Assembly: GCF_001854805.1 (NCBI RefSeq)
Contig: NZ_MBLO01000254.1
Coordinates: forward strand, 1-64,000
Direction of reading: 5' to 3'
Length of the DNA stretch: 64,000 nt
From: Pseudofrankia coriaricola
GTDB taxonomy: Bacteria > Actinomycetota > Actinomycetes > Frankiales > Frankiaceae
The notes beneath the pieces were generated by a model. That model ran no database searches, was not told the origin of the DNA, and saw nothing but the letters and a program-made list of their open reading frames with translations. Below are positions 12,256 through 20,641 of this stretch, in pieces. Positions within the stretch are counted from its first letter, which is position 1. Every line of letters begins with the position of its first letter. Both the position numbers and the translations under genes were made by a program.

Positions 12256-12292
12256 TTGACCTGCAGTTCCATTTCGCCCTATCGTGACGGAC
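12256..12292 (+). promoter_or_regulatory. promoter of leaderless TetR gene
   Basis: TTGACC (12256-12261), 18-bp spacer, TATCGT (12280-12285). The predicted transcription start falls on the GTG at 12293, which gives a leaderless mRNA. Confidence 0.5.
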
Positions 12293-12871
12293 GTGGCCCG
12301 CGGCAAGGCGTTCGATCCAGACACGGCAGTCGACAAGGCGATGGAGGTCTTCTGGGCCAACGGGTACGCCCACACCACGCCGCAGCAACTGGTCGACGCG
12401 CTCGGGATCGGCCGAGGCAGTCTCTACAACGCTTTCACCAGCAAGCGCGCGCTCTTCGAGCGGGCGCTGCGTCGCTACCACGAACGCGAGGCCGTGCAGA
12501 TCATCCGGGTCCTGGACGGGTCGGGTCCGCCTCGGGAACGCCTGCGGGCCGCGCTCGACCTGGTGGTGACCGCCGCCCTGTCGGACGATAAACGGCGCGG
12601 CTGCATGATGGCGAACACGGCGGTCGAGTTCGGCGACGGGGACGAGCCGATAAACCACCTGGTACGCCGGACCTTCGACCGGCAGGAGGCAGCGTTCCGC
12701 AGCGCTATCGAGGAAGGCCAGCGGTCCGGCGACATTGATCGAGCAGCCGACGCCGGGGCGCTGGCCGCCCTCTTTCTCGCCACGATCAACGGCATCCGGG
12801 TTCTGGGCAAGGCTGATCCGAATCCGCAGCGGCTCGCTGGGCTCGCCGACACCCTCCTTCGCTCCCTGTAG
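12293..12871 (+). CDS. TetR/AcrR-family regulator
   Basis: 192 residues beginning MARGKAFDPDTAVDKAMEVF, a start seen in many actinobacterial TetR proteins. The HTH follows as TPQQLVDALGIGRGSLYNAF. The C-terminal ligand domain contains RRGCMMANTAVEF, characteristic of the TetR_C_16/DUF family near YcdC-like regulators. GTG 12293 is preferred over GTG 12284 because it coincides with the predicted transcription start. Downstream by 75 bp on the same strand lies an SDR gene, a common target of such regulators. Ligand unknown. Confidence 0.88.
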   Translation: MARGKAFDPDTAVDKAMEVFWANGYAHTTPQQLVDALGIGRGSLYNAFTSKRALFERALRRYHEREAVQIIRVLDGSGPPRERLRAALDLVVTAALSDDKRRGCMMANTAVEFGDGDEPINHLVRRTFDRQEAAFRSAIEEGQRSGDIDRAADAGALAALFLATINGIRVLGKADPNPQRLAGLADTLLRSL

Positions 12872-13783: not shown

Positions 13784-13919
13784 GTCCCATCCGACTCGTT
13801 CTTCCGAAACCCGCTGGTCCAGCACCATCCCGATCAGCAGCGCCAGCGGATCATTCGTCAGAAGCTCGTCCGCTTCGTCGATCTGGCTCAGGCGCAGGCC
13901 CACGACATCACCGTAGCCG
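13784..13919 (-). repeat. HhH-GPD 5'-fragment repeat, copy D
   Basis: The minus-strand reading is VGLRLSQIDEADELLTND then PLALLIGMVLDQRVSEE. It shares the extended flank ttccgaaacccg with copies A and B. It starts 57 bp after the SDR stop. Confidence 0.85.
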
Positions 13920-14071
13920 ACCACATCGCGGCGGCCGGCGTGATGTGGTCAGATCGCCGTGTACCTGGTGTGCGCCCAGCCTGCCTCGCGAGAGGTCATC
14001 GCGTGGCTCGGCAGAGCGTGGTAGGGAACCCGGCCTTGGGTCGGTCGTCCTGGCACGTAGTCGGTCAGCAG

Positions 14072-14101
14072 TTGCGTACAGACATGTATGTATGTTGTAG
14101 T
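14072..14101 (+). promoter_or_regulatory. promoter with operator in the spacer, TetR autoregulation
   Basis: TTGCGT (14072-14077), an 18-bp spacer and TGTAGT (14096-14101). The spacer is exactly the imperfect palindrome ACAGACA-TGTA-TGTATGT (14078-14095; 6 of 7 arm positions pair). The ATG at 14108 begins 7 bases after the -10, so the transcript is leaderless. A repressor on the palindrome would block both boxes. Confidence 0.6.
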
Positions 14102-14107
14102 GAGATC

Positions 14108-14779
14108 ATGACGCAAGCCGAGCGCAGTGCGCGGTCTCGCGCCGCGCTGCTCGAGTCCGCCGCGCGCAACCTGTCCCAACACGGCTACGGCAACCTCGCC
14201 CTCGAGCGGGTGGCGGCGGACGCCGGCTACACAAGAGGTGCGCTCTACCACCACTTCAAGGACAAACAGGACCTGGCGATGGCCGTGATCGAGTGGGCCC
14301 ACGCCACCTGGGTGCGTGAGGTCGGCCCCTCCGTCGCCGGCGAGGCCGGGCCCGTCGCGGCGCTTCTCGCTCTCGCGCGCGGCCACGCCGTCTTCTGCCG
14401 GCGAGACGTCGCCCGCATGGCCATTGCGCTCCGGATGGAGTTCTCCGGCAAGGACCATCCCGTCGGGCGCGAGGTGGAGGAAAAGTACCAGCTGCTCGTA
14501 GGCCGCTGCGCCGACCTGATCGAGGCCGCGCGCAGCACCGGATCGATTCCTGCCGGTCCGCGGCCAGAAGTTCTGGCTCAGGCCGTCATCGGCGCGCTCG
14601 AGGGAACCGTGATCGCGGTCGCCGGCCAGGCGCAGTACGACGAGCTTCTCGCAGCCCGTGCCGTCGCGGGCGTGCTCGGAATTCCCGCTTCGAAAGCCCT
14701 GCAGGGTGAGGATGAAAATGAAGCTCCCGAACACCGAACACACGTCACGGCCCTGGCGAATTCACGAAGTGGCGCCTGA
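14108..14779 (+). CDS. TetR/AcrR-family regulator
   Basis: 223 residues. The N-terminal HTH is NLALERVAADAGYTRGALYH followed by HFKDKQDL, and a helical ligand domain runs to about residue 200. ATG 14108 is supported by a leaderless promoter with a palindrome between its boxes. The last 22 codons overlap the start of the DUF2867 gene in another frame, so the two are transcribed together. The last part (about residues 195-223) has no family similarity and may be a read-through tail. The inferred target is the downstream DUF2867 gene and itself. Confidence 0.9.
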   Translation: MTQAERSARSRAALLESAARNLSQHGYGNLALERVAADAGYTRGALYHHFKDKQDLAMAVIEWAHATWVREVGPSVAGEAGPVAALLALARGHAVFCRRDVARMAIALRMEFSGKDHPVGREVEEKYQLLVGRCADLIEAARSTGSIPAGPRPEVLAQAVIGALEGTVIAVAGQAQYDELLAARAVAGVLGIPASKALQGEDENEAPEHRTHVTALANSRSGA

Positions 14780-15335
14780 CTTCCACGTCGAGGATGTCTG
14801 GGCGCTGCCCACACCGGGCGCCGCGGAGGACTTCCCGAAACTGGTGCGGCGATTCGCCGGCGGCGACACCGCGAACAACCCGTCACGCCTCGCCCGGCTC
14901 CTCTTCACCATCCGCTGGCGCCTTGGGGCCCGGCTCGGCTGGGACGATCCCGCTTCGGGCGTCGGCACCCGGGTGCCGACACTGCGTGACCGCCTGCCAG
15001 CCGACCTGCGTGACGCCCCGGCCGGGCCGGCGTTCGACACTCTTCCGTTCCGGTCGGTCTACCTGACGGACAACGAGTGGGCCGCGGAGATGGCCAACCG
15101 CACTGTCCACACGGTGATGCACATCAGCTGGGTCCCGAACGACCCCGCCGACCGACAGCCAGGTGGCTACCGAGGCCAAATGACTGTGCTGGTGAAGCCG
15201 AACGGCCTGTTCGGGCGGGTCTACATGGCGGCGATCGCACCGTTTCGCCTGCTGATCGTCTACCCACCGCTGCTGCGAGGTATCGGAAAGAGCTGGCGCG
15301 AGAGCACCTCCCGCACCCCGCCGGTCGACGCCTAG
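14712..15335 (+). CDS. DUF2867 family protein
   Basis: 207 residues starting MKMKLPNTEH. Family hallmarks are the early PDFHVEDVWALPTPG, a central VYLTDNEWAAEMANRTVH and a C-terminal KPNGLFGRVYMAAIAPFRLL amphipathic segment. DUF2867 proteins have an SRPBCC/START-like fold and no fixed function. GGTGAGG lies just before the ATG at 14712. The gene overlaps the upstream TetR gene by 68 bp, which implies a regulator-target pair. The stop is followed at once by a fragment of another SRPBCC-type gene. Confidence 0.8.
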   Translation: MKMKLPNTEHTSRPWRIHEVAPDFHVEDVWALPTPGAAEDFPKLVRRFAGGDTANNPSRLARLLFTIRWRLGARLGWDDPASGVGTRVPTLRDRLPADLRDAPAGPAFDTLPFRSVYLTDNEWAAEMANRTVHTVMHISWVPNDPADRQPGGYRGQMTVLVKPNGLFGRVYMAAIAPFRLLIVYPPLLRGIGKSWRESTSRTPPVDA

Positions 15336-20430: not shown

Positions 20431-20565
20431 ACCATTCGATCTTTCCGGCACAGGCTGGTCCAGCACCATGCCGATAAGCAGGGCCAACGGGTCGTTCGTC
20501 AGCAGCTCGTCCGCCGCGGCGACCTGACTCAGGTGAAGCCCCACGAGAACACCGTAGCCGGCCGA
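20431..20565 (-). repeat. HhH-GPD 5'-fragment repeat, copy G
   Basis: The minus-strand reading is VGLHLSQVAAADELLTND then PLALLIGMVLDQPVPE. The GTG of VGLHL is preceded by the flank also seen in copies C and D. It lies 17 bp after the nitroreductase fragment and about 50 bp before the ArsR promoter. Confidence 0.85.
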
Positions 20566-20613
20566 CCACGTCCGCCGGACGGTCGTCACATCGCACGTAG
20601 GAGGAGGGGCGGC

Positions 20614-20641
20614 TTGACGTATGCCGATATCGGAATATGAT
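20614..20641 (+). promoter_or_regulatory. promoter with palindromic operator, ArsR operon
   Basis: TTGACG (20614-20619), 16-bp spacer, TATGAT (20636-20641). The spacer contains the perfect palindrome CCGATATCGG (20624-20633). The ATG at 20648 starts 7 bases after the -10, so the mRNA is leaderless. Confidence 0.7.

Follow-up and report, generated by a model that had tools for sequence, protein, structure and literature searches.

A conserved 22-bp palindrome as the predicted operator of a probable TetR-family autorepressor gene in Pseudofrankia coriaricola, with a possible start codon at its centre

The inverted repeat located ahead of the tetR gene in a 64,000-nucleotide stretch of the Pseudofrankia coriaricola genome (RefSeq assembly GCF_001854805.1, contig NZ_MBLO01000254.1, positions 1 to 64,000; the whole of this stretch is referred to below as the window) was found to be part of a 22-bp palindrome that is conserved at related loci and is very probably, judging from these comparisons, where the TetR protein turns off its own gene. 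The site is probably that of a leaderless TetR autorepressor of a tetR-DUF2867 operon (Table 1). A leaderless or nearly leaderless start of tetR is likely, and the comparison with relatives suggests, at evenly balanced confidence, that the tetR mRNA starts at or next to the ATG in the centre of the operator, whereas the promoter of the original prediction is probably 24 bp off.

Table 1. Features at the tetR promoter and in the adjacent genes (window coordinates)
Feature	Coordinates	Strand	Details
TetR-family regulator gene	14108..14779	+	223 aa from the originally predicted ATG; 231 aa from ATG 14084; Pfam TetR_N
DUF2867 gene	14712..15335	+	overlaps the end of tetR; Pfam DUF2867 1.5e-32; probable operon partner
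Predicted 22-bp TetR operator	14074..14095		dyad between 14084 and 14085; 19/22 letters of the relatives' consensus
ATG at operator centre	14084..14086	+	likeliest transcription and translation start (MYVCCSEIMTQ); in frame
TTGCGT	14072..14077	+	at the relatives' -10 position (mostly TAACAT); originally predicted -35; no A at position 2, so weak
TGTAGT	14096..14101	+	originally predicted -10; beyond the conserved block
TATGTT	14091..14096	+	rival -10; sole TANNNT in 13991-14107; offset as in the second-register -10 of L085 and L088

The tetR product matched the Pfam TetR_N model (1.9e-13; 50.4 bits against a cut-off of 24), which bears out the earlier assignment of the gene to the TetR family. 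Its best NCBIfam model was that of a ScbR-type receptor (NF041196), but the score of 94.3 bits lies under the cut-off of 150, and a role as a ScbR-family autoregulator receptor was rejected on this basis. Sequence relatives in the PDB include CprB, AvaR1 and 2w53 (titled REPRESSOR), the last of which we take to be SmeT. A DUF2867 match was found inside the retrieved DNA at 18 of 39 related loci, and no publication joining DUF2867 and TetR was found in a literature search that covered subscription journals thinly.

The original prediction had been built on the layout TTGCGT, an 18-bp spacer, TGTAGT and a downstream ATG, and all of these letters are present, with the spacer at 14078-14095, the ATG at 14108-14110 and a gap of six bases between TGTAGT and the ATG. 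The repeat described within the spacer (ACAGACA-TGTA-TGTATGT) is also there, its arms matching at 6 of 7 positions. By itself, a 7-4-7 repeat of this kind is not unusual and is weak evidence. Arms matching at 6 or more of 7 positions occur at 244 places in the 64-kb window, so palindrome statistics drawn from the window alone are uninformative, and 306 palindromic 22-mers match at 8 or more of 11 positions. The exact arrangement TTGNNN-18-TGNNNT-6-ATG was found once on the forward strand of the window, at the TetR site, and nowhere on the reverse strand, and a looser form was found five times and twice, respectively. The significance of the repeat ahead of tetR comes from the comparison with relatives, not from the repeat alone.

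Relatives were sought in overlapping sets of 393 genomes of the class, 22 of one family, 246 of one genus and 250 of another family, and at least 39 related loci encoding a TetR protein ~52-70% identical to that of the window were recovered (L075-L090 and L109-L131); three of these searches scored the best 7, 12 and 11 candidates per genome, such that orthologs may be missed. L091 (38% identical), L092-L100 (~31-37%) and L106 lie outside the 39. A further 66 remote TetR loci (L009-L074) proved too distant to serve as a comparison set and were kept as a control only.

The upstream DNA of the relatives shares a 22-bp palindrome with the consensus ACATACATACA followed, across the dyad, by TGTATGTATGT. 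In whole-locus scans, a 22-mer with at least 17 of the 22 consensus letters was found at 37 of the 39 related loci, the exceptions being L119 (12 letters; little upstream DNA on the contig) and L129 (15 letters, which is the background level). The best score was 15/22 in dinucleotide shuffles (ten per locus, n=390), 15/22 at the 66 remote loci and 14/22 in the other 16 tiles of the window, which span its first 61,200 bases. As the consensus was written after the sequences had been seen, the weight rests on this contrast with the controls. When up to 3 mismatches were allowed, a degenerate form of the pattern matched a single place in the 11.2-Mb genome, and the same pattern read backward, as a control, matched none. 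A conserved palindrome is thus present at the promoter of tetR itself, as predicted for an autorepressor, and it is very likely, on this comparative evidence, that the operator part of the best explanation holds. L091 carries no operator scoring at least 15/22 in a scan of the locus.

An operator in the spacer at 14078-14095 had been proposed, and a conserved operator was indeed found there, but the conserved unit is 4 bp longer and takes in the GCGT of the proposed -35. Its dyad does not coincide with the centre of the 18-bp spacer (14086/14087) but falls 2 bp upstream, and the 7-4-7 register was rejected. In seven related loci (L077, L080, L087, L088, L090, L128 and L131) tetR is not the first gene, and the nearest operator is 514-1220 nt upstream of it, with a DUF2867 gene lying between the two in L087 and L088.

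Several further operator-like sites were seen. L085, L118 and L122 have a second, weaker site (15-16/22) near tetR, ~51 nt before the codon matching Met 14108, in addition to a strong one upstream. The more distant TetR genes of L092 and L093 are preceded by a tandem pair of CATACAGTATGTATG sites, which are related to the operator but differ from it. Elsewhere in the window's genome, two sites of the form ACATAC-N(5-11)-GTATGT lie near C280 and C2, the two next-best TetR matches (79 bp and 1.7 kb away). A literature search with the string ACATACATACATG, in which subscription journals were thinly covered, returned only matches that are unrelated by title.

The operator-aligned rows (n=38, including the window and leaving out L129 and L119) were then read relative to the central ATG. 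T is present at -12 in 33/38 rows, A at -11 in 25/38 and T at -7 in 38/38, in an alignment whose register was chosen with a preference for these letters; once this preference was removed, TANNNT was found at the -10 position of 24 of the 31 tetR-adjacent loci. The A at -11 is barely mirrored (T in 7/38 at the opposite position), which points to a promoter role, and the T at -12 has a partial counterpart (A in 24/38), so that it may belong to the operator. Upstream of the operator no prominent -35 was detected in these rows, the best column being G at -34 (22/38, 0.59 bits).

At 12 of the 31 tetR-adjacent related loci, tetR can be read in frame from the central ATG without meeting a stop, and there this ATG precedes the equivalent of Met 14108 by 21, 21, 24, 27, 39, 42, 63, 63, 66, 78, 93 or 186 nt. 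At nine of these 12 it is the sole start codon at or upstream of that equivalent in the open frame. The window's side of the tree (19 rows) is supported at 100/100, though the branch order within it is mostly open and the drawing is rooted on the very long L091 branch. On this side, an operator-centred in-frame ATG is present in 11 of the 13 other loci where tetR comes first, the exceptions being L078 and L079; at a chance of one third, 11 of 13 in frame has a probability of 2e-4 if kinship is ignored. L083 has an operator-centred start on the other side of the tree. These in-frame central ATGs follow a TANNNT ending at -7, the -10 spacing expected of a leaderless gene, here one that would begin at the operator dyad. 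At the remaining 19 tetR-adjacent loci the central ATG is replaced, lies in another frame or runs into a stop, and start codons are found further downstream, several of them preceded by a purine-rich stretch. Leadered mRNAs that also begin with AUG have been described in E. coli (PMC4965119).

A second register was found at L085 and L088, where the operator lies ahead of a preceding open frame of 171 and 208 codons, respectively. Relative to the operator, TTGACT begins at offset -7, TATGTT at +17 and the ATG at +29. This is the design of the original prediction with the same operator, and the sequences indicate that it is real where another gene precedes tetR. In the weaker cases L087 (TTGATC) and L122 (GTG start) the open frames span just 25 and 33 codons, and L128, also weaker, has the second register without a -35.

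The sequence of the window matches neither register well. The hexamers ending 7 nt before ATG 14084 and ATG 14108 (TTGCGT and TGTAGT) both have no A at position 2, such that at offset -2 the window presents a poor -10 where the relatives mostly have TAACAT. It is unlikely that the window's promoter is the one originally drawn, in which TTGCGT from 14072 is the -35, the operator fills the spacer, TGTAGT from 14096 is the -10 and the same autorepressor is translated leaderless from ATG 14108. The geometry of the boxes fits, and the same design is seen at L085 and L088, on the same operator ahead of a different gene, and at an arsR gene 6.5 kb away. However, TGTAGT falls outside the conserved block, the -35 and -10 of L085 and L088, measured from the operator, each lie 5 bp upstream of the boxes originally drawn, the place claimed as a -35 is occupied by a TANNNT -10 in the nearest relatives, and the claimed start, Met 14108, aligns with a codon that varies among them (e.g. 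Leu, Val, Ser, Pro or Arg). What stands of the claimed leaderless promoter is the likely leaderless or near-leaderless start; a start at the operator centre, as suggested by the nearest relatives, is considered more likely than the boxes and the ATG as drawn.

Transcription from ~14103, directed by TATGTT as the -10 and leaving a short leader of ~5 nt before ATG 14108, would make use of the only TANNNT in that region, at the offset of the L085 and L088 -10. It is nevertheless considered improbable, as the matching place for the -35 reads AGCAGT, which is not TTGACT-like, and TTGCGT would be just 13 bp away.

Searches of 34 other genomes of the window's own order found no full-length tetR ortholog at E 1e-20, and the operon was perhaps acquired. 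L106, in the same order and found via DUF2867, holds a contig-end tetR fragment (residues 2-50 at 65%). In L106 (1-270), tetR and the DUF2867 gene are divergent with one operator between them, and the tetR side reads TAACGT-6-ATG, but the central ATG is out of frame or stopped. In L102 (1414-1562), also of this order, a DUF2867 gene with 78% identity was found with tetR only in pieces alongside and the operator absent, and this locus reads as a decayed copy of the tetR-DUF2867 operon. Both the scarcity of orthologs in the order and the tetR remnants of L102, together with loss of the A at the -10 position, would fit a relic operator in a strain where the promoter is weak or dead and tetR is transcribed from elsewhere. 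However, tetR has an unbroken frame and most of the consensus letters survive in the operator, and this explanation is very unlikely.

The claim of the same design at the arsR gene holds: TTGACG (20614-20619), a 16-bp spacer containing CCGATATCGG and TATGAT (20636-20641) are followed after six bases by ATG 20648. Of 29 other ArsR loci, 26 retain TTGAC (counted by eye), and the spacer palindrome, which is unrelated to the TetR operator, is kept across relatives. A third regulator gene, also of the TetR type, has a leaderless-looking start at 12256-12295 (TTGACC-18-TATCGT-7-GTG, with the GTG at 12293) and a spacer with no obvious palindrome. Upstream of the tetR and arsR genes, alignment revealed a diverged duplicate stretch (13796-13957 and 20436-20594) that on the minus strand presumably resembles the start of an HhH-GPD repair protein; no Pfam match to the duplicated stretch was found.

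Proteins of the TetR family bind as a dimer over the -10 region or start site and block RNA polymerase until a ligand frees them. In the mechanism proposed here, the TetR protein would repress its own tetR-DUF2867 operon via the 22-bp palindrome. As this overlaps the -10 region and the transcription start, the bound protein would keep polymerase off, and a small ligand would release it. Translation would proceed without a Shine-Dalgarno leader on an mRNA beginning at ATG 14084 and, with the start at the operator centre, the right half of the operator would also encode the first residues, Met-Tyr-Val-Cys. For this strain, we infer binding, repression, the ligand and the exact 5' end, and the whole autorepressor explanation with its start at ATG 14084 is plausible without being firmly favoured. 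More tentatively, and with somewhat less confidence, the 22-bp element may combine -10 region, operator, transcription start and first codons, the AUG of the leaderless mRNA being the operator dyad. The operator would stay fixed to the promoter in either of two registers, one with the start in its middle and the other with the operator occupying the -35/-10 spacer of the first gene, and lineages would be leaderless or leadered.

Leaderless TetR autorepressor operons are already known. In the acuR-acuI-dddL operon of Rhodobacter sphaeroides, the TetR repressor is likewise encoded by the first gene, the inverted-repeat operator overlaps the promoter, mapping placed the 5' end of the acuR transcript exactly at the AUG, and operator mutations lead to constitutive expression (PMC3017554). 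However, the AcuR operator sequence (TAATAGAC-n6-GTCTATTA) is unrelated, and it overlaps the -35/-10 promoter whereas that of the window's relatives is centred on the start codon (PMC3017554). The tetR gene of Tn1721 has also been cited as encoding a leaderless TetR autorepressor (PMC3017554, PMC4681348). In Streptomyces coelicolor, leaderless mRNAs arise from 21.0% of primary start sites, with TetR family regulators named as prominent among the genes concerned, though as a general class and, in the passages seen, with no discussion of a start-codon-centred operator (PMC4895711). CprB/ArpA-type receptors of Streptomyces offer a similar case of TetR proteins on a 22-bp semi-palindrome, theirs starting ACATAC, but the inner letters differ and the window protein is under the ScbR-family cut-off (PMC4150764). 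The CprB crystal has two dimers with one DNA in the asymmetric unit (PMC4150764), and one TetR dimer or, as there, two may occupy the window operator. Rv1460 (SufR) of Mycobacterium tuberculosis, also an autorepressor, was suggested to have a leaderless mRNA once its start had been shifted downstream, but it is not a TetR protein, and its reported binding site lies 20 bp ahead of the start codon (PMC6034842). None of the best-ranked titles, abstract openings and passages, in which subscription journals were thinly covered, was seen to describe an operator with a leaderless start codon at its centre, suggesting that the window operon is a slight variant of the kind represented by AcuR.

The consequence for the single gene in the window is small. 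If the operator centre is the start codon, then DNA binding, promoter strength and the protein N-terminus would be selected on the same 22 bases. The starts of such regulators may also be misannotated, as a gene finder seeking a ribosome-binding site would tend to pick a later codon. Around one fixed operator, the related operons show leaderless starts in some cases and apparently leadered starts in others, a natural series in which to ask why leaderless mRNAs are so frequent among autorepressors.
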